The notes under the pieces are model-generated. The model saw nothing but the letters and a program-made list of their open reading frames with translations. It searched no databases and had not been told where the DNA came from. DNA of 64,000 nt from assembly GCA_001799675.1 (NCBI GenBank), contig MGTX01000019.1, positions 11,168 through 75,167 on the forward strand, in the 5' to 3' direction. This document shows, in pieces, positions 8,899-33,988 of the stretch (within the stretch, counting starts at the first letter, position 1; every line of letters begins with the position of its first letter). A program made the position numbers and the translations under genes. Source of the DNA: Elusimicrobia bacterium GWA2_66_18 (GTDB lineage: Bacteria > Elusimicrobiota > Elusimicrobia > UBA1565 > UBA9628).

Positions 8899-10818
8899 GT
8901 GTGCGGGATCTGCGGCGCGGTCTATGGCGACGGCCGGACGCCTGACCAAGCTTCCTTTAAAAAGGCCAACGACCTCATCGCTCACCGCGGCCCGGACGAC
9001 GAGGGCTACCACCTCGACGGCCCGGTCGGGCTGGCGATGAGGCGCTTGGCGATCATCGACCTTTCGACGGGGCGCCAGCCGCTCTCCTACGCCGAGGGCG
9101 CCCTTTGGATCGTGCTCAACGGCGAGATCTACAACTACCTCGAGCTCCGCGCGGAACTGGAGGGCCGCGGGCGCCGCTTCAAGACCAAGTCCGACACCGA
9201 GGTCGTCCTTGCTCTCTATCAAGAGATGGGCCCGCGTTGCGTGCAGAAGCTGCGCGGCATGTTCGCCTTCGCGGTTTGGGATAAGAATAAGCGGAGGCTT
9301 TTCATCGCCCGCGACCGCATCGGCAAGAAACCTCTCGTCTACGCCGAACGCCCCGGCGGCACTCTTCTCTTCTCCTCCGAACTCCGTTGCCTTTTCGCCC
9401 TCGATGAGAGTCTCTCTCATCAAATCGATCCGATCGCCATCGACATGTATCTGTCGCTGCAGTATATCCCCTCGCCAAGGACGGTCTACCGCGACGTGAA
9501 GAAACTGCCTCCCGGACATACCCTCATATGGGAGAACGGAAGGACCACGATCGAACGTTACTGGGATCTGCCGGTCGGTCAGCCTCCCATCACCACGGAC
9601 GTCGAGGAAGCTAAGAGACTTTTACGCGATAAATTAACGGAATCCGTTCGCTTGCGCATGATCTCCGATGTCCCGCTGGGCGCCTTCCTCTCCGGCGGGG
9701 TGGACTCGTCCATTATCGTCGCACTGATGAGCGGTCTTTCCTCCAAGCCGGTGAAGACTTTCTCCATCGGCTTTGATGAAGAACGATTCTCCGAGACGCA
9801 TTACGCGAAGATGGTCGCCGACCGATATAAGACCGATCACACTGAATTCGTCGTCAAGCCGGAGATGGCGGACATTCTGCCGAAGCTGGCTTGGCACTAT
9901 GGCGAGCCCTACGCCGACGCCTCGGCCCTGCCGACCTATTACGTCTCGCGCGAGACGCGCAAGTTCGTGACCGTGGCCTTAAACGGCGACGGCGGCGACG
10001 AGAACTTCGGCGGCTACCTGCGCTATTTCGCGATGAAAGCGGCGCGCCTGACGGACTCCCTGCCCGGGCCGGTGCGTTCGGCGCTCAAAGCGGGGGCCGA
10101 ACTCCTCCCGGAGCACGACGCGCCTCTCGGCATGATCTGGCGGTTCAAGCGCTTCCTGCGGTCCACGCTCTTCAACGACCTGCCGGGCCGCCATCTCCGG
10201 ATGATCTGCTACTTCGCAGAGGACGAAAAGCCCTCGCTCTACGCCCCGGAGTTCGTGAAGGCGCTGGGCCCGGGGTTGGGGGCCACCACGAGGTACATGG
10301 CCGACGCCTTCACGGCCTGCGAGGGCGAGGACTTCGTCAACCGGATGCTCTATGTGGACTTCAAGACCTATCTTCCCGAATGCCTGATGGCGAAGGTGGA
10401 CATCGCCTCCATGGCCTGTTCGTTGGAGGGCCGCTCGCCATTGCTCGACCACGAGTTCGTGGAACTAGCCTACCGGATGCCGGGCAACTGGAAGCTCAAG
10501 GGCCTGCGGGGCCACAAGTGGATCTTCAAAGAGGCCTTCAAGGACCTTCTGCCCCCGGAGATACTGACGCGCGGCAAGATGGGCTTCGGCATCCCGCTCG
10601 GCTCATGGTTGCGCGGGCCGCTCAAGGACTATTGGGCCGGTCATGTCCTGTCCCGCGAGGCTCTGAGCCGCGGCTACTTCACGCAGAAGGGCCTGCGCTG
10701 CCTCTGGGACGAGCATCAAGGCGGCCGCCGCGACCACGGCTACCGGCTGTGGGCCCTGCTGATGCTGGAGCTTTGGCACCGCTACGCCGACGGCGAGGCC
10801 GGGCTTATCCGATCTTGA
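8899..10818 (+). CDS. asnB: Asparagine synthetase B, glutamine-hydrolysing (or amidotransferase homologue)
   Basis: 639 residues. After Met removal Cys2 (MCGICGA) is the N-terminal nucleophile of the class II glutaminase domain (about 1-210), with RGPDDEG and NGEIYNY motifs. The synthetase domain has the PP-loop SGGVDSS and a later LNGDGGDENFGGY. It would make asparagine from aspartate, glutamine and ATP; copies in polysaccharide clusters often amidate uronic acids or peptides instead, so a glycan role is possible. The GTG start is fixed by Cys2 and by a good Shine-Dalgarno (GGGAG, 6-nt spacing). Confidence 0.88.
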   Translation: MCGICGAVYGDGRTPDQASFKKANDLIAHRGPDDEGYHLDGPVGLAMRRLAIIDLSTGRQPLSYAEGALWIVLNGEIYNYLELRAELEGRGRRFKTKSDTEVVLALYQEMGPRCVQKLRGMFAFAVWDKNKRRLFIARDRIGKKPLVYAERPGGTLLFSSELRCLFALDESLSHQIDPIAIDMYLSLQYIPSPRTVYRDVKKLPPGHTLIWENGRTTIERYWDLPVGQPPITTDVEEAKRLLRDKLTESVRLRMISDVPLGAFLSGGVDSSIIVALMSGLSSKPVKTFSIGFDEERFSETHYAKMVADRYKTDHTEFVVKPEMADILPKLAWHYGEPYADASALPTYYVSRETRKFVTVALNGDGGDENFGGYLRYFAMKAARLTDSLPGPVRSALKAGAELLPEHDAPLGMIWRFKRFLRSTLFNDLPGRHLRMICYFAEDEKPSLYAPEFVKALGPGLGATTRYMADAFTACEGEDFVNRMLYVDFKTYLPECLMAKVDIASMACSLEGRSPLLDHEFVELAYRMPGNWKLKGLRGHKWIFKEAFKDLLPPEILTRGKMGFGIPLGSWLRGPLKDYWAGHVLSREALSRGYFTQKGLRCLWDEHQGGRRDHGYRLWALLMLELWHRYADGEAGLIRS

Positions 10819-11416
10819 GAGCCGAGAGGATGAATTGCACGCCGACGGCGGCCAGCAGGAGGCCCATGAGGCGCGTGATGATGTTCATGAGGGTCGACGA
10901 GATCTTGCTCGCGCCGCTGGCGGCCAAAGTGAGGAAGTGGTAGCTGACCAGGCCTACGGCCGCGATGCAAACGAAGAAGATGCCCTTGTGCGCCCAGGTG
11001 TCGGCCTTGCCGGCCAGCACGATGGAAGTGGTGATGGCTCCGGGGCCGGCCAGCATGGGGACCGCGAGAGGGGTGATGGCGATGTCTTCCTTACTGCGGC
11101 CCTCCTCGGCTTCCTCGGGGGTCTCGCGCAGGGCCGACTTCTGGGCGCGGAGCATGTCCAGGGAGGAGAGGAGCAGGACCAGCCCTCCGGCCAGTTGGAA
11201 GGCGGGCAGGGTGATGCCGAAGAGCTTGAAGATGGACGGGCCCATGACGGCGAAGGCGCCCATGACGCCCGCGCAGGTGATGCAGGCCGTGCGCGCCATG
11301 CGCCGGCGCTGCTTGGGGGTGTCGTTCTCCGTCATCGCGAGGAAAGTCGGGATCGCGGCGAAGGGATCCACGATCGCGAAGAGGGAGCCGAAGGTCAGGA
11401 ACGCGTATTCGAGCAT
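10805..11416 (-). CDS. MarC-family integral membrane protein
   Basis: 203 residues with six predicted helices. The signature FLTFGSLFAIVDPFAAIPTFLAMT at the start is that of MarC/UPF0056 proteins, whose activity remains unsettled. Also typical are VPMLAGPGAITTSIVL and ITRLMGLLLAAVGVQF. It converges with asnB, the two 3' ends overlapping by 14 bp. A TAGAAT box lies 9 nt before the ATG. Confidence 0.85.
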   Translation of the reverse strand: MLEYAFLTFGSLFAIVDPFAAIPTFLAMTENDTPKQRRRMARTACITCAGVMGAFAVMGPSIFKLFGITLPAFQLAGGLVLLLSSLDMLRAQKSALRETPEEAEEGRSKEDIAITPLAVPMLAGPGAITTSIVLAGKADTWAHKGIFFVCIAAVGLVSYHFLTLAASGASKISSTLMNIITRLMGLLLAAVGVQFILSALKIG

Positions 11417-11473: not shown

Positions 11474-12733
11474 ATGACCGTCAAAAAGAAGAAGTTGATC
11501 CGTCAGGTAGGCGTCGGAGGGTTCGCGGTCAGTCCCCGTGCGCGCCGCTACGTCGGCGAAGTCCTGCGCTCCCATCGCCTCTCCTACGGCCCCTTCCATC
11601 GTCGCTTCGAGTCCGCCTTCGCCAAGGAGCACGATTCCAAGCACTCCGTCTTCTGCAACTCCGGCACGAGCGCGCTCCATATCGCCCTCCAGGCGCTTAA
11701 GGAAAAACACGGCTGGGCCGACGGCGACGAGGTGTTGGTCCCCTCGATCACCTTCATCGCGACCTCCAACATCGTCCTGCACAACCGCATGCGCCCGGTC
11801 TTCGTAGACGTGGACCCGCGAACATACACCCTCGACCCCGCCCGGATCGAGGAAAAGATCACGTCTCGCACACGCGCCGTCATTCCCGTGCACCTGCTCG
11901 GTCTGCCGGCCGACATGGCCCCGATATTAAGCCTCGCCGCAAAGCGAGGTTTGTCCGTCATCGAGGACTCGGCGGAGACGATGTTTGCCCGCTACCAGGG
12001 CCGCAAGGTCGGCTCGCTCGGCGACATCGGCTGCTTCTCGACCTATGTGGCGCATTACATCGTGACCGGCGTCGGCGGTCTCGCAACCACGAGCGACCCC
12101 GACCTCTACATCCGCCTGCGCAGCCTCATGAACCATGGCCGTGATTCCATTTACCTCTCTATCGACGACGACAAGCACGCCAAGGGGGCTGAGCTCCACG
12201 AGATCGTCTCCAAGCGCTTCCAATTCGTTTCCGTCGGTCACTCCTTCCGCGCTACGGAGCTCGAGGCCGCCCTCGGCCTAGCCCAACTCGAGGAGAAGGC
12301 CGGCATCGTCAAGGCGCGCGTCCGCCTGGCGCGGCGCCTCAGCGAGGGCCTCCAGGAGTTTTCGGACCGCCTCCAGTTGCCCTTCTGCCCGCCGGATCGC
12401 GACCACACTTTTATGATCTATGGTTTGGTTCTGCGCGAGGAAGACAAGAAGGAACTCGTGAACTTCCTGGAGGACCGCGGCGTGGAGACGCGCGACATGC
12501 TGCCTCTGCTCAACCAGCCCGTCTACCGTTCCCTCTTCGGAGACCTGGAGCCGCAGTACCCCGTGGCGCGCTGGATTAACCGCTCCGGCTTCTATGTCGG
12601 CTGCCATCAGTATATGACGGTGCGCGATGCGGACTACATCGTCGAGCAGTTCCATGCGTTCTTCCGCGCGAAGAAAGGAGCGCGCGCAATGGCCTCGGCG
12701 CCGCGTAACAGGAGGATCCTCAGAAGTTTATGA
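11474..12733 (+). CDS. DegT/DnrJ/EryC1/StrS-fold enzyme with His replacing the PLP lysine (possible sugar 3-dehydratase)
   Basis: 419 residues with the sugar-aminotransferase fold: CNSGTSALHIAL (PLP phosphate loop), VPSITFIATSN, IEDSAE and GDIGCFSTYVAHYIVTGVGG. In aminotransferases the last motif carries the lysine that binds PLP (SFYPTKN...TGEGG); here the aligned residue is His194. ColD and RfbH (E1), which remove the 3-hydroxyl of 4-keto-6-deoxy sugars, share that replacement. The Fe-S cysteine pattern of RfbH is absent, so a ColD-like mechanism fits better. Followed by an SDR and a nucleotidyltransferase, it may make a 3-deoxy sugar. The exact substrate is inference. Confidence 0.75.
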   Translation: MTVKKKKLIRQVGVGGFAVSPRARRYVGEVLRSHRLSYGPFHRRFESAFAKEHDSKHSVFCNSGTSALHIALQALKEKHGWADGDEVLVPSITFIATSNIVLHNRMRPVFVDVDPRTYTLDPARIEEKITSRTRAVIPVHLLGLPADMAPILSLAAKRGLSVIEDSAETMFARYQGRKVGSLGDIGCFSTYVAHYIVTGVGGLATTSDPDLYIRLRSLMNHGRDSIYLSIDDDKHAKGAELHEIVSKRFQFVSVGHSFRATELEAALGLAQLEEKAGIVKARVRLARRLSEGLQEFSDRLQLPFCPPDRDHTFMIYGLVLREEDKKELVNFLEDRGVETRDMLPLLNQPVYRSLFGDLEPQYPVARWINRSGFYVGCHQYMTVRDADYIVEQFHAFFRAKKGARAMASAPRNRRILRSL

Positions 12734-12757: not shown

Positions 12758-13711
12758 ATGCAAAGAACAGTGTTGGTAACCGGCGGCACTGGTTTTTTGG
12801 GCAAGAGGCTCGGGCTTGCCCTGAAGAAGGATTTCAACGTCGTACTCAGCGGACGAAACAACAAGCAGAACATGATCGCTGCGGAGTTTTCCGGCTGCCG
12901 GGCTCTTCCGCTCGACGTCGCTAACATCGAGTCCGTCCGGGACGTCTTCGCCGAGGCGCGGCCGCACATCGTGGTTCACGCTGCCGCGACCAAGTTCGTC
13001 GATCTCGCCGAGAAACATCCGATGGAATGCATCGACGTCAACGTGGTTGGCTCCCAGAACGTAGCCCGCGTGGCCGTCGAGAAGGGCGCCGAGGTCGTCG
13101 TCGGGGTGTCCACCGACAAGGCCGCTCCTCCCATTCGGAACATCTACGGGCTCTCAAAGGCCGTCATGGAGAAAATGTTCTGCTCGATGAACGGCAAGAC
13201 GCCGACAAGATTCTGCTGTGTTCGTTACGGCAACGTCGCCTGGTCCACCGGCTCGGTCCTCCCGATCTGGAAGAAGATGCATGAGAGGACGGGAGTCATC
13301 AAAACGACCGGCCCGGAGATGCGCCGCTTCTTTTTCACGGTGGACGAGGCGGTGAAGCTCGTGCGCACGGCTATCGACAATATCGATGCGATTTCAGGGA
13401 ACATCCTCACCCGCACGATGAAGTCGGCGCAGATTGAGGCTCTCTTGAAGGTCTGGATCAAGCACAAGGGCGGAAGCTGGGAAAAGATTGCGGGTCGCCC
13501 AGGAGACCGGCTCGACGAGTTTATTTTCGGAGAAGCCGAGTTGCCCTTTACGAGCGAGTGTAAATACGGCGACGTCCCCCACTACGCGATCTCCCCCAAT
13601 ACCCGCATTGAGCGGCCGCTGAAAGAATGCGTTTCGTCGGCAAACGTCGAGAGGCTCAGCGAGCAGGAGATCCTCGCCATCATCAATGATCCGCCCCTGG
13701 AAGAGAAATAA
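12758..13711 (+). CDS. SDR sugar-nucleotide dehydratase/epimerase (PseB/CapD-like)
   Basis: 317 residues, extended SDR. It has the NAD(P) loop GGTGFLG (9-15), HAAATKFVDLAEKHP, VSTDKAA (Asp120, Lys121) and the catalytic YGLSK (Tyr130, Lys134). The STDKA motif is typical of PseB/FlaA1/CapE 4,6-dehydratases. The enzyme would convert a nucleotide-activated sugar to a 4-keto-6-deoxy form, the substrate type a ColD-like enzyme needs. It overlaps the next gene by 26 bp. Base composition is visibly lower in GC than the flanks. Confidence 0.78.
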   Translation: MQRTVLVTGGTGFLGKRLGLALKKDFNVVLSGRNNKQNMIAAEFSGCRALPLDVANIESVRDVFAEARPHIVVHAAATKFVDLAEKHPMECIDVNVVGSQNVARVAVEKGAEVVVGVSTDKAAPPIRNIYGLSKAVMEKMFCSMNGKTPTRFCCVRYGNVAWSTGSVLPIWKKMHERTGVIKTTGPEMRRFFFTVDEAVKLVRTAIDNIDAISGNILTRTMKSAQIEALLKVWIKHKGGSWEKIAGRPGDRLDEFIFGEAELPFTSECKYGDVPHYAISPNTRIERPLKECVSSANVERLSEQEILAIINDPPLEEK

Positions 13712-14402
13712 GAACAAGGTCATCCGGCACGCGCTGATCATGGCGGCCGGCCGCGGGATGCGGATGCTGCCTCTCACGAACAGCATCCCCAAACCCCTGG
13801 TCCATTTCGGCAACGACACGCTCATCTCGAGCGGCATTCACAGGATCACGAAAGCCGTTGAGTTCGTCCACATCACGGTCGGTTACAAAGCCGCGACGGT
13901 GGCCCAGCACGTCATCGAGCTTGGCGTCAACACGGTCCTCAACACTGAAGGCAAGGGAAACGCGTGGTGGATTTACAACACGTTCTTCAAGCTGCTCGAC
14001 GAGCCGATTTTTGTCCTCACCTGCGACAACATCGTTGAGCTGGATTTCAACCTTATCTCGAAGGAATACGTCCGTTTCGGACGGCCGACCTGCATGGTGG
14101 TTCCCGCCCGGCCGATTCGCGGCTTGGAGGGCGACTATATCCTGCAGCGCGACAACGTCGTCTTTCGGTTGGATCGGCGCAAACCGACGGGATCGTATTG
14201 CTCCGGCATCCAAGTGCTCAATCCGGCCAAAATCAATGGGATGACGCGCCGGACCGAGGACTTCAATAGCGTCTGGCGGCAACTGATCAGCCGCCGACAG
14301 GTTTACTGCTCGAACATCTATCCGAAACGGTGGTTCACTGCGGACACCATCGACCAGCTTGCTCGGCTCAATACCTGGGGAAAAGGGCGTTCCGTCTCGT
14401 AG
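13686..14402 (+). CDS. Sugar-1-phosphate nucleotidyltransferase
   Basis: 238 residues. The pyrophosphorylase signature AAGRGMRMLPLTNSIPKPL (20-38) carries the G-x-G-x-R and PK residues that bind NTP. Metal-binding LTCDNIVELD follows. Length and lack of a C-terminal hexapeptide domain resemble MurU or mannose-1-phosphate guanylyltransferase short forms. It would supply the nucleotide-sugar entering this module. It overlaps the SDR by 26 bp, so translation is probably coupled. The base and sugar cannot be named. Confidence 0.8.
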   Translation: MIRPWKRNKNKVIRHALIMAAGRGMRMLPLTNSIPKPLVHFGNDTLISSGIHRITKAVEFVHITVGYKAATVAQHVIELGVNTVLNTEGKGNAWWIYNTFFKLLDEPIFVLTCDNIVELDFNLISKEYVRFGRPTCMVVPARPIRGLEGDYILQRDNVVFRLDRRKPTGSYCSGIQVLNPAKINGMTRRTEDFNSVWRQLISRRQVYCSNIYPKRWFTADTIDQLARLNTWGKGRSVS

Positions 14403-14415
14403 AGACCGCTTCGCT

Positions 14416-15429
14416 ATGCCCGTCTCAGTCACCGCGATCATCACTTGCTACAACTACGGCCGCTTCGTCGAAGAGTCCATTCGCAGCGTTCTGAATCAAG
14501 ATTGGAGCGGCTGCTCGCGGGAGATCATCGTCGTCGACAACGAATCGACCGACGACACGCGGCAGCGCGTTGAAAAATTCGTTCCCGAAGTCCTCTATAT
14601 CCATCAAAAAAATCAAGGGCAAGGAGGGGCGTTCAACACGGCGTTTCGGCATTCGAGCGGAGAAATCATCTGCTTCCAGGATGCCGACGATATTTGGTAT
14701 CCGCGCAAAATCGTCCGAGTCCTGGAGGAGTTCGCCCGGCATCCCGAAGCCGGGATCGTCCAGCATCCGCTCGATGCGATGGATGCTTCCGGACGCGTTC
14801 TCTGGCGAGCCTCCGCGTTGACGCAGGCCGATCTCCGGCTCGAGGATCTTTTGGAAGGCAGAGCGCAGCTGATCGGCGCGCCGGGCCTCAGCATTCGCCG
14901 GTCCGTGTTTGAAAAAATCTCTCCTGTGCCGACCGACGCGCCCTATTGCGCGGATGAATACGTGTCGAAGCACGCTCTTTTCTTCGCTCCGGCGCGCACC
15001 GTGCCGGAAGCATTGGGCTGCTTGCGCATCCACGGCAATAATTTTTACCAAAAGATTGATTGGAAGCCGGAGAATATCGAGAAATACCTGATGATCCGCG
15101 AGCATTGGGACAGGCATCTTGAACGCCGGCTCAAGGAGCGGGGCCTGCGCCTATCGCCGCTCGTCGAACGCTTGAGCCTGTTGGAGCGGCGCAAGAAGGA
15201 GATCCTCCTGTGCGGTTGGCGCGGCCGGAAGTCTGAGGGGCTTGCCGTCTGGCGCCGGCTCAAAAATGAGAACCCGGCGTCTCTGTTTCTAGCGTTCAAG
15301 ATGGCGAGCCTGTTGATCGCGATGATCTCTCCAAGTCTTTATTTGAATCTTCAAGCCGGGTATGAAAAATTCCGATGGTTGCCGCGCTTGCGCATGGCGC
15401 TGCTGCGCGAGAATGCCTCGCTGAAGTAA
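14416..15429 (+). CDS. GT2-family glycosyltransferase
   Basis: 337 residues. GT-A domain with TAIITCYNYGRFVEESIRSVL, VVDNESTDDT and the metal-binding FQDADDIWYP (DXD region). The acceptor half has a CADEYVSKHALFF stretch and a basic C-terminus with one weak hydrophobic patch. The ATG at 14416 is chosen because it directly precedes the first strand; upstream in-frame starts lie in the preceding gene. It lies 13 nt after the nucleotidyltransferase and is probably the enzyme that uses its sugar (inference). A/T-richer than its surroundings. Confidence 0.85.
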   Translation: MPVSVTAIITCYNYGRFVEESIRSVLNQDWSGCSREIIVVDNESTDDTRQRVEKFVPEVLYIHQKNQGQGGAFNTAFRHSSGEIICFQDADDIWYPRKIVRVLEEFARHPEAGIVQHPLDAMDASGRVLWRASALTQADLRLEDLLEGRAQLIGAPGLSIRRSVFEKISPVPTDAPYCADEYVSKHALFFAPARTVPEALGCLRIHGNNFYQKIDWKPENIEKYLMIREHWDRHLERRLKERGLRLSPLVERLSLLERRKKEILLCGWRGRKSEGLAVWRRLKNENPASLFLAFKMASLLIAMISPSLYLNLQAGYEKFRWLPRLRMALLRENASLK

Positions 15430-21870: not shown

Positions 21871-24288
21871 ATGAGCGTTCCGGACGGTTTGGAAAATATG
21901 AGCCAAGGACCACAGCTATCCGTCGTTCTGCCCACCCTCGACGAGGCCGCGGGCCTGCGCGTCCTTCTGCCGCGTTTGGAGGCCCTCTTTTCGCGCCTCG
22001 GCGTGAGCGGGGAGGTCCTGGTGGTCGACGGGGGCTCCCGCGACGAGACGACCGCGGTCGCCGCGGAGCAGGGCGCGCGCGTGCTGCGTCAGAAGGGCCG
22101 CGGCTTCGGCTCGGCCGTGCGCGAGGGACTGCAGGCGGCCGGCGCCGAGTGGGTCGCGCTGATGGACGCGGATGGTTCCCATGCGCCCGAAGACCTCGAG
22201 CGCTTCTGGGCGCGGCGACAGGAGGCGCGGCTGATCGTAGGCTCGCGCTATTGCCGGGGCGGTTCGGCGGACATGCCTTGGCTGCGCCAGGTCCTCAGCC
22301 GCGCGCTCAATATCGTCACCCGGCGCGTGCTGGATTTGCCCGTGCGCGAGTCTTCCAGCGGATTGCGCCTCTATCACGGGCCCTCCGCTCGGGCCGTGCC
22401 CAGCGTCGCGATGGATTTTTCGATCCAGCAGGAGCTCCTCGTCGGCATACTCGCCAAGGGCGGACGCGTGGTCGAGGAGCCCATCCACTACGCCCCGCGC
22501 CTCACCGGGGAGTCCAAGGCGAACGCCTGGGAACTGGCCTTCGCCTACGCGCGCATGCTCCTGCGGCTCAAGCCCCAGCGCGGCGGCTGGCGGGTGGAGG
22601 CGGGCCTTTTCTGCACGCTGACTCTAGGTCTCGCCACGGGCCTATGCGGCATCACGGGCGGCCTGCCGGGAACGGAGCGCTGGCGGGCCCTGCCCGAGGG
22701 ACTGCGCCGGTCCCCCGTCTTCGCGCGCAGCTTGGCCGACTCCTGGCGGCGTCTCTATGAAGAGATAAAAAAATCCCACGACGAGATGCGCGCCGATGAG
22801 CCGCGCACCTCGGTTCGGGGCGTCGTCGAGATCGCCCCAGGCTGGACCTTTCCTCCCGACGAGTTGGTCAATGCCGCGCGCGCCCTTCTGACCCAGACCG
22901 TGAACCCCGATGAGAAAAAATCGTTCATCATCCTGGCGCAGATGCGTCCGTGGCGTTTGGAGCTCAAGCCCCTCTACGTCCAATACGGAGGCGCGTTCAT
23001 CTATCCTCTCGGCGCTTTCCTGGGTGGCGCGCACCTGCTCCATCTCGCACGGCTGACGCCCGACCTCTCTTACTATCTGGCCGCGCCGGAGGCGATGGCC
23101 CGCCTCTACCTCCTTGGTCGCCTTTTCACGCTTCTCTTCCACCTCGGAACCCTCTGGCTGCTCTATGAGTTAGGGCGCATCCTGTCCGGACGTCGGACCG
23201 GGACTGCGGCGGCCCTCCTCTGGGCCCTGGCCCCGGTCGCGATCATCAACGCCCATATCCTTAAGCCGCATCCCGTCGCGGCCTTCTTCTTCCTCGCCGG
23301 GGCCTACTTCATGGTCCGCGCCGTCGAGGAGGGAAGAGGAATTGACGCTCTTCTCTGCGGCCTAGGGATGGGCTTGGCCGCCGGCGGCAATCTTGTCCTC
23401 GGCTTCGGGCTCTGCGCGCCGCTGCTCGCCCGGCTCTGCCGCCGCGAGGGATCCTGGATTGCGGCTGGCCTCGGGTCGGTTGCGGGGCTGGGCGCCGTGA
23501 TCGTCACCAATCCCTTCCTCGTCTTCTCGCCCCGCGACTTCGCCTGGGAGCTCACCGTCTACTCTCCATCGCACTTCGCCTTATCTCTTAGGGGGCTGGC
23601 CGTCTTTGCCCTGCGCGTCGTCCCGGAGGGGCTCGGGGCCGCGCTGGCCGCGCTGGCCGCGGCGGGCTTGGCGCGCGCCCTCTTCCAGGACGCGTGCCGC
23701 CGCGCGGCGGCCCTGCTCGCCCTCGGGGGCATCGCCGTCGTCCTGCTTCGCTTTCCTGAGATCTCAGCTAGCACCGGCTCCCTGCGCCTGCACTACCCGG
23801 TTGCGGCCCTCGGGGTCCTCTTCGCCGCCGACCTTCTGTCCGCGCTCCCCTCTCCGGCCCTGGCCGGGCTCCTCCTGGCGGGCGCTTTGGCCGACACGGG
23901 ACTGCGCGGCGCCGTCCATCTCGAGAACCTCCGCCGGGAGGCCGGGCCGTCGTCGACGAAAACCCTCGCCGCGGGCTGGGTGGACGCGAACATCCCGGCC
24001 GGGGCCTCGGTTGGTCTGCTGCGTTATCCCGAACCCGCGCACACTCCGTCCTTCCGCTGGGATCGCCTGCGCTTGGTGGTCTTCGAGTCGTCTCGGAACC
24101 TGGAAGCGCGCCCCGCGCCGGAGTGGGTTGTCGCCAGCGCCTCGGGGTGGGACGCCTTGGACGAGGGCCTGCGCAACCGCTATGATGAGGCCCAGAGCTT
24201 CCCGCCGGCGCGTCTGCTGTGGGCCGCGCCGCGCGACGACTCCTTTTACGCCGACGCCGGCATGACCGTCCGGCGGCGCCGACCATGA
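21871..24288 (+). CDS. Fusion of a DPM1-like GT2 with a GT-C membrane glycosyltransferase
   Basis: 805 residues. Residues about 10-235 are a GT2 polyprenyl-phosphate sugar synthase: LSVVLPTLDEAAGL, VVDGGSRDET, MDADGSHAPEDLE and a RESSSGLRLYH region. From about 240 onward it is a polytopic GT-C-type protein with the shared tail AAGWVDANIPAGASV. One protein could thus both load a sugar on the lipid carrier and transfer it outside. There is no stop or frameshift at the junction. The start may instead be ATG 21898, which begins MSQGPQLSVVLP; TATTTT (21859-21864) precedes the first ATG by 6 nt. Confidence 0.75.
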   Translation: MSVPDGLENMSQGPQLSVVLPTLDEAAGLRVLLPRLEALFSRLGVSGEVLVVDGGSRDETTAVAAEQGARVLRQKGRGFGSAVREGLQAAGAEWVALMDADGSHAPEDLERFWARRQEARLIVGSRYCRGGSADMPWLRQVLSRALNIVTRRVLDLPVRESSSGLRLYHGPSARAVPSVAMDFSIQQELLVGILAKGGRVVEEPIHYAPRLTGESKANAWELAFAYARMLLRLKPQRGGWRVEAGLFCTLTLGLATGLCGITGGLPGTERWRALPEGLRRSPVFARSLADSWRRLYEEIKKSHDEMRADEPRTSVRGVVEIAPGWTFPPDELVNAARALLTQTVNPDEKKSFIILAQMRPWRLELKPLYVQYGGAFIYPLGAFLGGAHLLHLARLTPDLSYYLAAPEAMARLYLLGRLFTLLFHLGTLWLLYELGRILSGRRTGTAAALLWALAPVAIINAHILKPHPVAAFFFLAGAYFMVRAVEEGRGIDALLCGLGMGLAAGGNLVLGFGLCAPLLARLCRREGSWIAAGLGSVAGLGAVIVTNPFLVFSPRDFAWELTVYSPSHFALSLRGLAVFALRVVPEGLGAALAALAAAGLARALFQDACRRAAALLALGGIAVVLLRFPEISASTGSLRLHYPVAALGVLFAADLLSALPSPALAGLLLAGALADTGLRGAVHLENLRREAGPSSTKTLAAGWVDANIPAGASVGLLRYPEPAHTPSFRWDRLRLVVFESSRNLEARPAPEWVVASASGWDALDEGLRNRYDEAQSFPPARLLWAAPRDDSFYADAGMTVRRRRP

Positions 24289-24773
24289 ACCGCCCTCTGG
24301 CCCTCGCTTTGTCGACCGAACCGCGCGTGACCCTGCGCGCAGCCGAGCCGCGCGACTTAGAGGACCTTCGGGTCTGGAAGAACGCCAACAGGAAGAGCTT
24401 CTTCTTCCAGAGCGAGATCACCCCGGAAATGCAGAAGACCTGGTATGCCTCATACCTCCTGCGTCCCGAGGACTTCATGTTCATCGTCGAGCACAAGGGC
24501 CGCAAAGTCGGGTGCATGGGCTTCCGTCTCCAGAAGGACGGTTCGGCCGACGTTTACAACATCATCGTCGCGCCCGGCGGTGCGGGCAAGGGGCTCATGA
24601 AGGCGGCGATGGGCCTGATGTGCGCCCATATCGCGTCCCATCACACCAAGGACATCGGCTGTCTGGTCTTAAAAGGCAATCCGGCGGTGACTTTCTACGA
24701 GCATTGCGGCTTCAAGAACGTCGCAGACGCCGGAGACCATATCATCCTGAAGCTTGAGGAGGGGAAAGCATGA
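24285..24773 (+). CDS. GNAT-family N-acetyltransferase
   Basis: 162 residues. The N-terminal VTLRAAEPRDLEDLRVWKNA and the acetyl-CoA site IIVAPGGAGKGLMKAAMG (R/Q-x-x-G-x-G/A type) followed by LKGNPAVTFYEHCGFKN are standard GNAT features. The N-terminus resembles sugar-amine acetyltransferases such as PseH and WecD. The ATG overlaps the previous stop (ATGA), and its own stop overlaps the aminotransferase start. Amination by that neighbour followed by N-acetylation by this enzyme is the likely route (inference). Confidence 0.82.
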   Translation: MNRPLALALSTEPRVTLRAAEPRDLEDLRVWKNANRKSFFFQSEITPEMQKTWYASYLLRPEDFMFIVEHKGRKVGCMGFRLQKDGSADVYNIIVAPGGAGKGLMKAAMGLMCAHIASHHTKDIGCLVLKGNPAVTFYEHCGFKNVADAGDHIILKLEEGKA

Positions 24774-25873
24774 TCAACGTTTTCGGCTCGCTGATGGGTC
24801 CGGAGGAACTGGAGGAAGTCCGCACCAGCCTCGAGGCGCAGTGGATCGGCATCGGCCCCAAGACCTCGGCCTTTGAGAATGCGTTCGCTGCGCGTCTCGG
24901 CTTGCCCGGCTTCGTGCTGCTCGACTCGGGCTCCAACAGCCTGCACCTGGCCATGAAACTCCTGGACCTACCTCCGGGCTCGGACGTCATCGTGCCCTCG
25001 TTCACCTGGATCGCCTGTGCGCACGCCGTCATCCTCTCCGGTCATCGCCCGGTATTTGCCGATGTGGATCTCGACACCCACAACATCACGCTGAAGACGG
25101 CTGAGGCGGCCCGCACGCCTAAGACCGCGGCTGTGATGATCGTCCACTACGGAGGGCTCCCGGTTCGCGTCGATGAAATCGCCCGCCTCGGCCTGCCCAT
25201 CCTAGAAGACGCCGCACACGCGGTGGACTCGAAGCTGAAGGGCGTCTCCTGCGGGAATCTAGGTGAGGTCGGCATCTATTCCTTCGATGCCATCAAGAAC
25301 CTGGCCATGGGTGAGGGCGGGGGCCTGACCGCCAAGGACTCGGTGCGACTGGCGCGCGCCAAGCAACTGCGCTACTGCGGCATCGGCAAGTCCGGCTTCG
25401 AGGCTTCGGCCAGCAAAGACCGCTGGTGGGAGTACAACGTCACCGACTTCTTCCCGAAGATGTTGCCCAGCGACATCGCCGCCTCCATCGGCCTGGCCCA
25501 ACTGCGCAAGCTCGACAAGATGCAGGCCTGCCGCAAAAAGATCTGGGAGGTCTTCCAGAAGGAGTTCGCCTCCTTGGGCTGGCTTGTGCGTCCACAGGAC
25601 GCTCCGACCGATGCGACGCACTCCTACTTCACCTACTGCGTGCGCGTGCCGGGCGGTAAGCGCGATGCCTTCGCTAAATACCTCTACAACGCCGGCATTT
25701 ACACGACTCTACGTTACCATCCCCTGCACATGAACAAGATCTACGGCTCGACCGCTCGGCTGCCGGTCTGCGAGCGCCTCAACGAGGAAGCCCTGAGCCT
25801 GCCCCTCCATCCGGGCCTCAAGGATGTGGATGTGGCCAAGATCGTGGAGGAAGTGAAGGGCTGGAAAGGATGA
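24770..25873 (+). CDS. DegT/DnrJ/EryC1/StrS aminotransferase (PLP lysine intact)
   Basis: 367 residues. It has LLDSGSNSLHLAMK, VPSFTWIACAHA, LEDAAHAVDS and the PLP-binding YSFDAIKNLAMGEGGG with Lys176. It would transaminate a keto sugar nucleotide, probably with glutamate. It contrasts with the 11474 protein, in which this lysine is His. ATGA overlaps at both ends bind it tightly to the acetyltransferase and flavoprotein genes. Confidence 0.87.
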   Translation: MINVFGSLMGPEELEEVRTSLEAQWIGIGPKTSAFENAFAARLGLPGFVLLDSGSNSLHLAMKLLDLPPGSDVIVPSFTWIACAHAVILSGHRPVFADVDLDTHNITLKTAEAARTPKTAAVMIVHYGGLPVRVDEIARLGLPILEDAAHAVDSKLKGVSCGNLGEVGIYSFDAIKNLAMGEGGGLTAKDSVRLARAKQLRYCGIGKSGFEASASKDRWWEYNVTDFFPKMLPSDIAASIGLAQLRKLDKMQACRKKIWEVFQKEFASLGWLVRPQDAPTDATHSYFTYCVRVPGGKRDAFAKYLYNAGIYTTLRYHPLHMNKIYGSTARLPVCERLNEEALSLPLHPGLKDVDVAKIVEEVKGWKG

Positions 25874-27282
25874 CTGAAGACCCCATCATCGTCCTCGGCG
25901 CGGGTTGCGCTGGTCTCATGGCCGCGCGCCGCCTGCGCGAGAAGGGGCGGCCGGTCCTGCTCGTGGAGGCCGAGGATCACGTCGGGGGCCTGGCCGGGGG
26001 CATCACGCTCGGGGGGGACGTCTACGAATACGGTCCCCACGTCTTCCACACCACGGACGCCGACATCCTCGCCGACATCAAGACCCTCATGGGAGGAGAT
26101 CTTCTTCCCTATGAACGGACGATCCAGATCAAGTTCCTGGGCAACTACTTCAAGTTCCCGCTCGCCATGCCCGACGTCCTGCTCAAGCTCCCTCTGACGA
26201 CGGTCCTCCACGCGGCGGGGAGCTTCGCCTATCACTTCGTCAAGGGCGCCTTGGTCAAGCCCGCGCAGGAGAACTCCGAGACCCTCCTGCAACGCTACTA
26301 CGGCGATGTGCTCTACCGCCTTTTTTTCAAGGACTACATCCAGCGCGTCTGGGGCATCCCCCCTTCGGACTTCTCCCCGTCCTTCGCGCGTGAGCGCATC
26401 CCGCGCCTGAATATCCTGGACTTCCTCGACAAGGCCGCGGCCGCGGCGCGCAAGGTCTTCTCATCCGGCGACGCGATGAAGACCGAGGGCTATGTCGAGA
26501 AGCTCGAGGGGCAGCTCTGGACCACGAAGAAGGGATTCTCCATGATCTGCGAGCGCATGGCCGCCGACGCCTTGAAGAAAGGTGCCCGGCTGCGCCTCTG
26601 TGCCCGCGTCCTCTCGCTGCGCCGGGAAGGCGGGAGGGTCGCGGCTGTCGAGTTGGAACACGGCGGCAAGAGCGAGGTCGTGCCCTGCTCCGGGATCGTG
26701 AATACGCTGGCCATCAACGAGGCGGCGAGGATGTTCACGCCGTCGCTGGGCGACGCGGTGGCGGCGGCGGCCGAGGCGATCCGCTTCCGGGCCATCGTAT
26801 TCGTCGGCCTCAAGGTCCGCCGGCCGAAGGCCCTGCGCGCCTCCTTCATGTATTTCCGCGAGCATTCCTTCAACCGCATCACGGACCTTGCGCACTTCGG
26901 CTTCCACATGGACCCGCCCGGGACCACGCTTCTGGTGGCGGAGGTCGCTTGCGACCCGAAGGACTCCATCTGGACGGACGAGTCCGTGGCGGTGGAGGCC
27001 GTGGTCGCGGACTTAGTCCGCGAGGACATCCTCGACCGCGCGGAGGTGATCTCCGCCCATGTCTTCCGCGCCCGTCACGCTCACCCCATGTACACCCTGG
27101 GCTATGAGGTTGCGCTCAAGACGCTCCTTGACGCTTTCGCGGGTCTATCGAACGTCGAGACCGCCGGCCGTCAGGGGCGATTCCAGTACGTCAACACGCA
27201 TGTGGCCATGAAGATGGGTCTCGACGCCGCCGACCGCCTGGACGCGAAGCTGGAAAACGGTGTCAGGCTTTCGAATCTTTAA
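25870..27282 (+). CDS. FAD-dependent oxidoreductase, UDP-galactopyranose-mutase/protoporphyrinogen-oxidase-like
   Basis: 470 residues. The FAD dinucleotide loop is VLGAGCAGLMAARRL with the acidic LLVEAEDHVGGLAGG. YEYGPHVFHTTDADIL resembles the G-x-H-x-FHT motif of UDP-galactopyranose mutase, though the protein is longer than that enzyme. Similar proteins are common in surface-glycan clusters and may rearrange or oxidise a sugar. The start is an ATGA overlap. The last eight codons lie inside the left arm of a perfect inverted repeat, so the natural C-terminus may have been replaced. Confidence 0.78.
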   Translation: MTEDPIIVLGAGCAGLMAARRLREKGRPVLLVEAEDHVGGLAGGITLGGDVYEYGPHVFHTTDADILADIKTLMGGDLLPYERTIQIKFLGNYFKFPLAMPDVLLKLPLTTVLHAAGSFAYHFVKGALVKPAQENSETLLQRYYGDVLYRLFFKDYIQRVWGIPPSDFSPSFARERIPRLNILDFLDKAAAAARKVFSSGDAMKTEGYVEKLEGQLWTTKKGFSMICERMAADALKKGARLRLCARVLSLRREGGRVAAVELEHGGKSEVVPCSGIVNTLAINEAARMFTPSLGDAVAAAAEAIRFRAIVFVGLKVRRPKALRASFMYFREHSFNRITDLAHFGFHMDPPGTTLLVAEVACDPKDSIWTDESVAVEAVVADLVREDILDRAEVISAHVFRARHAHPMYTLGYEVALKTLLDAFAGLSNVETAGRQGRFQYVNTHVAMKMGLDAADRLDAKLENGVRLSNL

Positions 27283-29267: not shown

Positions 29268-30269
29268 GTGGGATATTGGGACCGCAAGAAAGTCTTGGTG
29301 ACGGGCGGCGGCGGTTTCATCGGAAGCCACGTCGTCGAGCGCCTGCTCGCCTCCGGGCGAGGCGTGAACATTACGGTTGCCGACCACCCCTCGCCCGCCA
29401 AGCGGCGCAACCTGGCCGCAGTCTGGAAGGACCTGCGCTTCGTCTCGACCGACCTTCGAAACTCCGCCGCGGCGCGGCGCGTCTGCCGCGGCCAAGACGT
29501 CGTCCTCAACCTGGCCGCCTGCGTCGGCGGCGTGGGCTACAACAGCGTCCATCACGGCTCGCTGTTTCGCGACAACATGATCCTGGGACTCAACGTTCTG
29601 GAGGCGGCGCGGCGCGCCCAGGTCGGCCGCTTCCTCGTCGTCAGTTCCGCCTGCGTCTATCCGCGCGACTGCGCGATCCCGACCCCGGAGGCCGAGGGCT
29701 TTCGGGACCGGCCCGAGCAGGCCAACGAGGGCTACGGTTGGGCCAAGCGCATGACCGAGTACGCCGGCAAGACCTATGCCGGCGAGTTCGGCATGTCCGT
29801 TGCAATTGCCAGGCCCTACAACGCCTACGGCCCCCGCGACCACTTCGACCCGGAGCGCTCTCATGTGATCGCGGCCCTCGTCAAGCGCGCCTGCGATGAA
29901 GAGGACCCGGTCAAGGTCTGGGGCGACGGCCGCTCCACCCGCTCGTTTCTATTCGTGGAGGATATCGCCCGTGGAATCCTGGAGGTCGCCGAGAAGTACC
30001 CGCGGGCCGATCCCGTCAACATCGGGGCCGACGATGAGATCTCGGTGCGCGAGTTGGCCGAGATGATCATCCGTCTAGCCGGCACGGGGGCGAGACTGTC
30101 CTTCGACCTGCTCAAGCCGTCGGGCCAGCCGCGCCGTCGCTGCGACGTGACGAAGGCGACGAAAGAACTCGGCTTCACGGCGCGGGTCGCCCTGCCGGAG
30201 GGCCTGGCGAAGACGATTGAATGGTATCGCGCGCACGAGAGGGGGGCCGTCGAGGCAGTCCGCCGATGA
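29268..30269 (+). CDS. NAD-dependent epimerase/dehydratase (extended SDR), paralogue A
   Basis: 333 residues. The NAD loop is VTGGGGFIGSHVVE, then VVSSACVYPRDC and the catalytic YGWAKRM (Tyr and Lys), with RPYNAYGPRDHFDPERSHVI in the substrate domain. The overall pattern resembles GDP-fucose synthase and GDP-mannose 3,5-epimerase. It is clearly paralogous to 33014-33988 (same MTEY/MAEF, RPYNAYGPRDHF and SGQPRR segments). The GTG start begins an operon with a GT2 and a GT39-type protein. Confidence 0.82.
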   Translation: MGYWDRKKVLVTGGGGFIGSHVVERLLASGRGVNITVADHPSPAKRRNLAAVWKDLRFVSTDLRNSAAARRVCRGQDVVLNLAACVGGVGYNSVHHGSLFRDNMILGLNVLEAARRAQVGRFLVVSSACVYPRDCAIPTPEAEGFRDRPEQANEGYGWAKRMTEYAGKTYAGEFGMSVAIARPYNAYGPRDHFDPERSHVIAALVKRACDEEDPVKVWGDGRSTRSFLFVEDIARGILEVAEKYPRADPVNIGADDEISVRELAEMIIRLAGTGARLSFDLLKPSGQPRRRCDVTKATKELGFTARVALPEGLAKTIEWYRAHERGAVEAVRR

Positions 30270-32211: not shown

Positions 32212-33017
32212 GGAAGCGGCCGAGTGCCCCGGCTTCCTATCCTGGGGGTTGCCTTAGTTTTTGCCCATGGCCATATTGTCCGCGCTGCGCGCGCCGCTCC
32301 CAGCCTGAGGATGCCGGACAGAGCTTGGTAGATTTCATAGAGACTGAGGTTGGACTGGCCTCGCACCCGGTTGACGAAGACCGTCGGCAACTCGGCGAAG
32401 CGGAATCCCTGAGCATAAAGCCGATCAGCGCTTTCGCTTAAGGCGATATAACCGCTGAGGCATAAATCGCGCGCGGCCACGCACTCGGCCGCCGGCCGGC
32501 TGTAGGCCCGATAGCCGTTGGTCAGGTCCGACAGCGGGATATTGAGCAGCAGGCGTGCCAGCCTATTGGAGGCCTTGCTGAAAATCCGGCGCGAGAGGCT
32601 CCACCCCAGCACCGAGCTGCCCGGAAGATAGCGCGAGCGCACGACCACGTCGGTATCGGCCAGCGCCGCGACCATCGAGGAAAGCTCGCTGGGGTCATGC
32701 GAGAAGTCGGCATCCATCTCGACGACACAACGCGTTTGCGGACGGCTCAGGGCTCGCCGGAGGCCTTCGAGGCAGGCCGAGCCGCGGCCCGATTTGCTCT
32801 GGCGGTGGATCACCTCCAGCCGTTCGTCCCGCCGAGCCAGCGCGTCGACGACGGCTCCGGTTCCGTCCGGCGAGCCGTCATCGACGACGATGACCCGCAA
32901 CGGGCCCAGTTCGCGCAGGCGCTCGATCAGACGGCCGATATTGGCGCTTTCGTTGAAGGTCGGGATGACAACGCAAACCTCGTCGATCCCAGGCGCTGGC
33001 GGCAGGGCGTAGCTCAC
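32208..33017 (-). CDS. GT2-family glycosyltransferase (DPM1-like)
   Basis: 269 residues. It has VCVVIPTFNESANIGRLIERL, VVDDGSPDGTGAVV, EMDADFSHDPSELSSM (DXD) and LTNGYRAYSR, typical of dolichyl-phosphate-mannose-synthase-like enzymes. The C-terminus is basic with no clear helices. GTG 33017 is preferred over GTG 33038 because it overlaps the epimerase stop as GTGA. Confidence 0.83.
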   Translation of the reverse strand: MSYALPPAPGIDEVCVVIPTFNESANIGRLIERLRELGPLRVIVVDDGSPDGTGAVVDALARRDERLEVIHRQSKSGRGSACLEGLRRALSRPQTRCVVEMDADFSHDPSELSSMVAALADTDVVVRSRYLPGSSVLGWSLSRRIFSKASNRLARLLLNIPLSDLTNGYRAYSRPAAECVAARDLCLSGYIALSESADRLYAQGFRFAELPTVFVNRVRGQSNLSLYEIYQALSGILRLGAARAARTIWPWAKTKATPRIGSRGTRPLP

Positions 33018-33988
33018 CCGAGATGCTGCCGATACCACGCCACCGTGCGCTGTAGCCCCTCATAGAGTCGCACCCGCGTCTTAAAGCCCAGCAGGCGGCG
33101 GGCACGCGTCGCATCACAACTGCGCCGAGGCTGTCCCGAGGGCTGCGAGGGGTCGAAACGTAACCGGGCTTTCGAACCCGCAGCGCGCAGTATCATCGCC
33201 GCCATATCCGCGACCGAAACCTCTTCGTCGGCGCCCAGGTTTAAGGGCTCGGACCTGCCGCGTTCGGCAGCGTCTACGATGCCTCGAGCCAAGTCTTCAA
33301 CATAAAGGAACGAGCGCGTGACCCTTCCGTCGCCCCAGACCAGCACCGGGTCGTCTCCGCGCAGCACGCGCGCCATCAGCGCGGCGATCACATGTGAGTC
33401 CTCGCGGCCGAAATGGTCGCGCGGGCCGTACGCGTTGTAAGGCCGGACGATCGTGATGTCCAGGCCGAATTCGGATGCATAGGCCTCGGCGAGAAATTCA
33501 GCCATACGCTTGGCCCAGCCGTAGCCTGCGTTGGTGGGCTCAGGCTGGCCGAGGAAGCCCTCGCTTTCGGGAGTCGGCACAGTGGCCCCCCGCGGGTAAA
33601 CGCAGGCTGTGCTCGCCATCAAGACGCGCGAGACGCCAGCCTGGCGCGCCGCCTCGAGTAGATGGCAGCCGAGCAGCATATTTTCGCGAAACATCGTCGC
33701 CGGGTGCGCTCTGTTGTAGGCGATGCCGGCGACACGCGCGGCTAGATGCAGCACCAACTCCTGCCCGCGGCAGGCCTTCAGGCAGGCCTGCGGCTGGAGC
33801 AGGTCGAGCTTCATCATGCGGATATGCCGCACGATCGAACGGAGATTCGCGCGCCGGCCGGAGGAGAAATTGTCGGCCACTGTCACCCGCACCGTGGGAC
33901 TGCGGCGCAACAACTCTTCGATGACATGGCTGCCAATGAAGCCCGCCCCGCCTGTGACCAACACCTTTTTCCCGTCCCAGAAGTTCAT
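33014..33988 (-). CDS. NAD-dependent epimerase/dehydratase (extended SDR), paralogue B
   Basis: 324 residues. It has VTGGAGFIGSHVIEELL, MASTACVYPRG, catalytic YGWAKRMAEF, and RPYNAYGPRDHFGREDSHVI. Very similar in layout to 29268-30269, and likewise followed by a coupled GT2, so the epimerase/GT2 pair looks duplicated and inverted. A TAAAAT box (34019-34024, minus strand) and a weak GAGG (34000-34003) precede the ATG, so this one seems to have a short leader. Confidence 0.82.
   Translation of the reverse strand: MNFWDGKKVLVTGGAGFIGSHVIEELLRRSPTVRVTVADNFSSGRRANLRSIVRHIRMMKLDLLQPQACLKACRGQELVLHLAARVAGIAYNRAHPATMFRENMLLGCHLLEAARQAGVSRVLMASTACVYPRGATVPTPESEGFLGQPEPTNAGYGWAKRMAEFLAEAYASEFGLDITIVRPYNAYGPRDHFGREDSHVIAALMARVLRGDDPVLVWGDGRVTRSFLYVEDLARGIVDAAERGRSEPLNLGADEEVSVADMAAMILRAAGSKARLRFDPSQPSGQPRRSCDATRARRLLGFKTRVRLYEGLQRTVAWYRQHLG

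Follow-up and report, generated by a model that had tools for sequence, protein, structure and literature searches.

A putative ColD-like sugar 3-dehydratase of a separate lineage, with a histidine in place of the cofactor lysine, in an Elusimicrobia genome

The His protein and its neighbours in the window

The window, that is, the whole stretch of 64,000 nucleotides analysed from Elusimicrobia bacterium GWA2_66_18, holds an intact open reading frame of 419 residues (11474..12733, + strand) for a DegT-fold protein with a histidine at the position of the PLP lysine. The motif concerned, STYVAHYIVTGVGG (12038..12079, + strand), covers residues 189-202, and the codon of His194 lies at 12053-12055. 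The product matches the fold family PF01041 (DegT_DnrJ_EryC1) with 308.1 bits against a cut-off of 19.8. A scan of species genomes returned 35 loci, with 34 close relatives at 53-83% identity, whose hosts include Elusimicrobiota, Micrarchaeota, Nanoarchaeota, a Thermoplasmata archaeon, Gemmatimonadota, Acidobacteria/Acidobacteriota, a Thiotrichaceae bacterium, and others; these records are metagenome-assembled, and single host assignments may be wrong. The gene is patchy in Elusimicrobiota, where it is found in 21/294 genomes, 11 of the 13 genomes of the window's genus among them. No print record of this lineage was found among open-access PMC papers.

The His protein opens a run of genes that share its strand and either overlap or are separated by short gaps. 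It is followed by a short and soluble SDR of the PseB/CapD type (12758..13711, +), which holds a STDKA...Y..SK motif and matches Polysacc_synt_2 (188 bits) and 2gn4 (126 bits). The PseB model TIGR03589 gives it 164.3 bits, below the cut-off of 407.75, and the protein is, as judged from its sequence, a probable sugar 4,6-dehydratase. The SDR gene overlaps that of a MurU-like sugar-1-phosphate nucleotidyltransferase (13686..14402, +; NF045761, 71.7 bits, cut-off 250), and the next gene encodes a family 2 glycosyltransferase of uncertain start (14359..15429, +; PF00535, 105.9 bits). In the nearest Elusimicrobiota loci (L001, L002, and L006), a relative of this glycosyltransferase comes directly after the His protein.

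An earlier note on this DNA had pointed out the neighbouring SDR and nucleotidyltransferase, and had drawn a pathway through them. Both genes are real, and they allow the same C-3 deoxygenation to be read with a different substrate: the nucleotidyltransferase and the PseB-type 4,6-dehydratase would supply an NDP-4-keto-6-deoxyhexose or -HexNAc, leading to a 3,6-dideoxy or a 2-acetamido-2,3,6-trideoxy sugar. The position of the pair, directly downstream of the His protein and ahead of the glycosyltransferase, is in favour of this reading, as is the fact that the only other genome with an orthologous pair among 56 genomes of the order, G323, also encodes the His protein. In G323, the one clear ortholog of the SDR (63%, cut by the contig end) is followed by the nucleotidyltransferase (53%), but the His protein is encoded on a different contig, where neither gene is present. 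Moreover, neither gene has an ortholog in the loci of the 34 relatives at E 1e-10, where gmd is carried instead of the pair, and the window's genome has a gmd of its own. Altogether, this reading is regarded as improbable.

With the pair in 0/34 loci and in one other genome of 56, its role as a conserved pathway is rejected as a general rule, and the earlier note's route via the adjacent genes is not borne out. The pair, which is also kept in locus L116, looks like a separate two-gene unit. The G+C content is 56-61% at ~12.5-15.5 kb and 62-64% in the His gene, compared to 67-74% before 9 kb and after 15.5 kb.

An SDR and a nucleotidyltransferase also follow the His protein of a Solidesulfovibrio plasmid (L048), and their likeness to the window pair was considered and rejected: the SDR exhibits no meaningful similarity, and the nucleotidyltransferase matches that of the window at E 0.001 only. 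The DegT protein of this plasmid (4989-6194 in L048) combines a YVAH motif with a cysteine cluster, adjoins a GDP-L-fucose synthase and TPP enzymes, and seems to stand midway between the window family and the Fe-S type.

Upstream of the His protein, and divergent from it, lies the gene for a MarC-family membrane protein (10805-11416, -), which occupies the same place in L001, L004, and L009. It is preceded by an asparagine-synthase-like amidotransferase (8899-10818), for which TIGR03108 (XrtA/PEP-CTERM amidotransferase; 630.6 bits, cut-off 816.9) is the best specific model and whose relatives (70-79%) precede the His protein in L002, L003, L004, L007, L008, and L009. Further along the window (24219-27282), a GNAT acetyltransferase, a Lys-type DegT protein, and an amine-oxidase-like flavoprotein stand in a row, and this Lys-type DegT protein recurs near the His protein in L001, L034, and L069.

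Fold, residues and phylogeny of the His protein

The AF2 model of the window protein (pLDDT 89.0, pTM 0.88) has GDP-perosamine synthase as its best match (TM 0.82 by query, rmsd 1.6, 36% identity), with E1 (0.84, 28%) and ColD (0.82, 24%) ranking lower by E-value, among other aminotransferases. By VIA-align, the Z-scores were 50.2 for E1 and 48.0 for ColD, and 50.9 for GDP-perosamine synthase (3bn1; rmsd 1.5, 37% identity), which is the closest enzyme by sequence and fold. The latter nevertheless differs from the window protein in holding the PLP lysine and in lacking an inserted segment. The fold does not tell a dehydratase from an aminotransferase; the histidine does.

When aligned with these solved enzymes, His194 shares its column with the PLP lysine of 3bn1 and with the catalytic histidines of ColD (2gms) and E1 (3bcx), confirming the earlier note both in placing His194 at the PLP lysine site and in ascribing the same Lys-to-His change to ColD and RfbH/E1. 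The residue is kept in 35/35 aligned family members, in 42/42 after the addition of seven loci, and in 31/31 relatives from IMG/VR; because of this invariance, it is neither an error nor the product of chance. D165, H140, G376, and H378 are likewise invariant in 35/35 sequences, and the signatures of the family are CFSTY[VIA]AH, NHGRDSIYxxIDDD, and GFYxGCHQ.

An invariant lysine column was sought in the alignment of the 35 family sequences and none was found, the best being K76 (32/35), which lies far from the His motif in sequence. With His194 and no invariant lysine, the internal-aldimine lysine of the DegT/DnrJ/EryC1/StrS aminotransferases is missing, which speaks against the earlier note's caveat that another lysine might bind PLP. 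The Pfam name and the best PDB matches, which are aminotransferases, would be in agreement with an ordinary aminotransferase using another lysine, or with an inactive or regulatory DegT protein. Against it stand the absence of an invariant lysine, the parting of the family from the Lys clade in both trees described below, and the conservation without exception of 80 positions in the 35 sequences, which come from distant phyla, and this conservation argues for an active enzyme; this explanation is very unlikely.

The cysteines of the [2Fe-2S] site of E1/RfbH are absent, as the earlier note had stated, both in the family alignment and in the alignment with E1: D165-S166-A167 is found where E1 has DCC, and RDSIYLSIDDD replaces RDCYCAPGC. 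ColD resembles the window protein in its DegT fold, its Lys-to-His change, its lack of these cysteines, and a GxxVGxHQ motif near the C-terminus (GFYVGCHQ in the window protein, GLFVGNHQ in ColD), where the listed aminotransferases mostly have xSLP or xLP. Despite these similarities, the two are 24-25% identical, the motif FSTYVAHYIVTGVGG of the window protein has FSSFYSHHIATMEGG as its counterpart in ColD, and the segment NHGRDSIYLSIDDD sets the window protein apart. E1/RfbH, on the other hand, shares the DegT fold, the Lys-to-His change, and a segment inserted after the His motif, at 28-29% identity, and the RfbH model NF011936 gives the window protein 208.7 bits, below the cut-off of 423.

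For the phylogeny, 63 of the 99 collected rows were used (22 of the family, 12 other His rows, and 29 Lys rows), the 36 omitted rows being 20 family members and 16 Lys rows. A single branch parts all His rows from all Lys rows (support 100/98); the window family forms one clade (100/100), and a second clade (100/99) comprises ColD, E1/RfbH, 9wvy, and a cyanophage protein. In a second tree, where the His motif, the segment following it, and the C-terminal motif were removed and four long-branch rows were left out, the His/Lys split persists (99/99), with a weaker family branch (89/99). On the data of this second tree, the AU test rejects the family and ColD as one clade (p 9.9e-5), so that membership in the ColD clade is rejected by this test, in line with both trees. 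The earlier note's C-3 deoxygenase is thus retained in part: the protein is ColD-like, without an Fe-S site and off the branch of the Lys aminotransferases, but it does not fall with ColD. These trees make the window family the third lineage with the histidine, next to ColD and E1/RfbH.

The recently solved 9wvy is a putative NDP-4-keto-6-deoxyglucose 3-dehydratase with SFYAGHHLTMGEGG as its His motif and without the E1-type cysteine cluster in the printed stretch; it sits on a long branch near ColD and E1.

A grouping of the family with perosamine-synthase-like Lys proteins is not rejected by the AU test (p 0.129), and therefore a second, independent Lys-to-His change beside the GDP-perosamine synthases is possible. 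The same result, together with the closeness of GDP-perosamine synthase by sequence and fold, would also suit another PMP chemistry, in which the nitrogen is retained after the loss of the C3 hydroxyl, giving a 4-amino-3,4,6-trideoxy sugar (GDP-3-deoxyperosamine-like), as might be compared with SpnQ in the absence of its reductase. According to the pertinent passages of one study, SpnQ does show aminotransferase activity without the reductase, whereas ColD and E1 show none in such conditions (PMC8987622). Considering also the histidine in place of lysine in 35/35 sequences, and the association with GDP-fucose-synthase-like SDRs, enzymes that require a 4-ketone, this chemistry is decidedly improbable.

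Partner genes in cellular genomes and on virus contigs

Two further SDRs of the window resemble GDP-fucose synthase: one at 29268..30269 (+), whose best NCBIfam match of four families is NF047922 with 189.2 bits, and one at 33014..33988 (-), with 192.5 bits for the same model, both far below its cut-off of 500. By alignment, both retain counterparts of the catalytic residues of GDP-L-fucose synthase, Ser107, Cys109, Tyr136, Lys140, and His179 in E. coli numbering, with Thr replacing Ser in the 33014-33988 SDR. Relatives of the first SDR (65-77%) occur in 7 of the 10 nearest loci, and those of the second (57-64%) adjoin the His protein or are close to it in L066, L069, L070, and L071. These two SDRs, which lie 17-21 kb from the His gene, are the only substantial GDP-fucose synthase matches in the window's genome (about 183-193 bits). 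The genome holds one gmd, on another contig (C2:23904-24923, 587 bits), and no canonical ManC/PMI above cut-off, an 87-bit match covering its nucleotidyltransferase part only.

Among the loci of the 34 relatives, gmd is present in nine (L011, L012, L015, L016, L018, L022, L025, L029, and L031), two of which, L022 and L025, belong by coordinates to the window's genus (G148 and G158) and have overlapping His and gmd genes; it is found in none of the loci of the ten nearest relatives. A GDP-fucose-synthase-like SDR is present in 15/34 loci, the threshold being 45% to any of the references, among which is L028 itself. Both genes accompany the His protein in L015, L029, and L031, the same set as in the true ColD operons L101 and L102, which hold gmd, GDP-L-fucose synthase, and ColD, with manC nearby. 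The partners of ColD thus accompany many of the window protein's relatives; in the window's genome, gmd is on another contig and the SDRs are 17-21 kb away. These recurring partners point to GDP-4-keto-6-deoxymannose.

The co-occurrence of gmd with the His protein across Elusimicrobiota (19/21 genomes with the protein versus 73/273 without it) is confounded by phylogeny and weak inside the window's own family (16/17 versus 11/17), and it was set aside as evidence. No gmd match was found for four Micrarchaeota relatives (L010, L013, L026, and L033) nor for L020; in L010, L013, and L033, its place may be taken by an adjacent SDR that has a TSE motif of the GMD type.

A substrate of the kind used by E1/RfbH, CDP-4-keto-6-deoxyglucose, would be an alternative that dispenses with the iron-sulfur site. 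In the Micrarchaeota locus L013 (2544-9170), which resembles the RfbH-transketolase locus of Methylovirgula (L045), the His protein is accompanied by genes similar to rfbF and rfbG and by split transketolase genes, and CDP-glucose 4,6-dehydratase is encoded in 6/25 genomes of relatives. The other 19, nevertheless, are without it, as compared to 20/25 genomes with gmd; rfbF and rfbG are as a rule not beside the relatives of the window protein, and rfbG is found in 0/31 viral His loci. Furthermore, L031 carries gmd, SDR, and His protein in this order and, a few kb on, a separate and true RfbH, which keeps its cysteines and has its own partners, an rfbF-like gene before it and an rfbG-like gene after it. 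The window family lacks the Fe-S cysteines. Such a substrate is most unlikely.

A scan of IMG/VR with the family alignment yielded the 31 viral loci (L127-L157) mentioned above. As a control, Lys-type DegT loci were collected from IMG/VR with an alignment of nine Lys proteins as the query, a scan with one Lys protein having returned no relatives; the control loci are the best 80 of at least 542 confirmed Lys relatives, 74 of them with a lysine-type motif. With references from two cellular His loci as queries, gmd was detected within 4 kb in 18/31 viral His loci and in 3/80 controls (the best 80 of at least 542), or, after the removal of near-copies, in 13/25 and 2/72 (the latter from the same best 80 of at least 542). 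With the controls drawn from the best 80 of at least 542 in each case, the GDP-fucose-synthase-like SDR was found in 8/25 versus 1/72 loci, GT11-like genes in 12/25 versus 1/72, and GT10-like genes in 8/25 versus 0/72, the GT10 and GT11 queries coming from the His locus L138, so that this comparison leans to the His group.

In L138 (1373-5185), the genes follow in the order GT11, gmd, GDP-fucose-synthase-like SDR, GT10, and His protein, the last four overlapping, and the contig also encodes a terminase large subunit and a DNA polymerase, as well as, close to the set, an ice-binding-like protein. Terminase_6N was detected in 3/16 contigs tested, the viral nature of most others resting on IMG/VR. 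In L134, L137, L143, and L157, an RmlC-like epimerase and an SDR are found instead of the GDP-fucose-synthase-like SDR.

Proposed reaction and its reach

GDP-perosamine synthase, the closest enzyme by sequence and fold, acts on a GDP-sugar, GDP-4-keto-6-deoxymannose. This is also described as the substrate of ColD in the relevant part of one paper (PMC8987622), and the sharing of this substrate by both enzymes supports a GDP substrate for the window protein. In the same part of that paper, the histidine of ColD takes the cofactor proton, the C3 hydroxyl leaves, the intermediate is hydrolysed, and glutamate restores PMP, while E1 requires its Fe-S site and a reductase (PMC8987622). Since the Fe-S cysteines are missing from the window protein, the ColD type of route would fit.

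The window protein is therefore proposed, with a probability of roughly 0.6, to be a ColD-like, PMP/glutamate-dependent 3-dehydratase of GDP-4-keto-6-deoxy-D-mannose that belongs to a lineage of its own and whose product would be converted to a GDP-3,6-dideoxyhexose, probably GDP-L-colitose. Its components differ in strength. C-3 deoxygenation as the predicted chemistry is well supported by the residue, the tree, and the context, from which we infer the catalysis; the GDP substrate we infer from the context; and colitose as the product is a guess, its stereochemistry being taken from the partner SDR. The dideoxy-sugar route suggested in the earlier note would thus hold as a 3,6-dideoxyhexose pathway, but through gmd and a GDP-fucose-synthase-like SDR rather than through the adjacent genes. 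Against the GDP reading, gmd is off-contig here and absent from the ten nearest loci, four Micrarchaeota relatives have no gmd match, and the reading does not explain the SDR/nucleotidyltransferase unit.

In the proposed mechanism, glutamate would turn the bound PLP into PMP. With GDP-4-keto-6-deoxy-D-mannose, a product of the genome's own GMD, PMP would then condense to a Schiff base at the C4 ketone. His194, unable to hold PLP as a lysine does, would serve as base and acid, taking the cofactor proton and expelling the C3 hydroxyl, and hydrolysis would then give GDP-4-keto-3,6-dideoxymannose, ammonia, and PLP. The SDR at 29268-30269, as a ColC-like C5-epimerase/C4-reductase, or that at 33014-33988, would epimerise C5 and reduce C4, and the end product, GDP-L-colitose or a close stereoisomer, would be destined for the surface polysaccharide of the cluster.

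Colitose is 3-deoxy-L-fucose, and GT10 and GT11 are fucosyltransferase families using GDP-L-fucose. On a wider and more tentative view, whose odds are put at slightly less than even, the family would represent a third PMP-dependent sugar 3-dehydratase lineage, as yet without a name, that is spread over bacterial phyla, DPANN archaea, and tailed phages and travels in a mobile set leading from GDP-mannose to a colitose-like GDP-3,6-dideoxyhexose; the phages, which bring GT10/GT11-type transferases of their own, would add 3-deoxy-fucose to glycans of the host or the virion. One published cyanophage carries gmd together with genes for GDP-L-fucose synthase and fucosyltransferases, and the main text of the paper does not mention DegT (PMC9602691).

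If the proposed function is true, the three family signatures would allow C-3 deoxygenation to be predicted in phages as well as in Elusimicrobiota and DPANN archaea, and there would be a second, Fe-S-free case in which to ask how an aminotransferase turns into a dehydratase. Curated models name the window protein only as a member of an aminotransferase family, and 3,6-dideoxy sugar pathways in these phyla would therefore be overlooked. In the part concerned of a pathway survey, score thresholds are taken from characterised enzymes, and entries of the DegT family are described as incompletely annotated (PMC7725333).

The C3-dehydratases of Campylobacter jejuni HS:5/HS:11 are likewise dependent on PLP/PMP and glutamate and act on a GDP-4-keto sugar, although their substrate is a heptose, unlike that proposed here; in the corresponding passages, they are 62-67% identical to the characterised enzymes of E. 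coli and Y. pseudotuberculosis (PMC10440746), and are therefore of the ColD kind.

In five loci from Acidobacteria, Gemmatimonadaceae, and Thiotrichaceae (L016, L018, L020, L024, and L030), a zinc-binding sugar C-methyltransferase (Methyltransf_13/14) comes after the His protein and is itself mostly followed by SDRs, with gmd in L016 and L018; this suggests a branched 3,6-dideoxy sugar.
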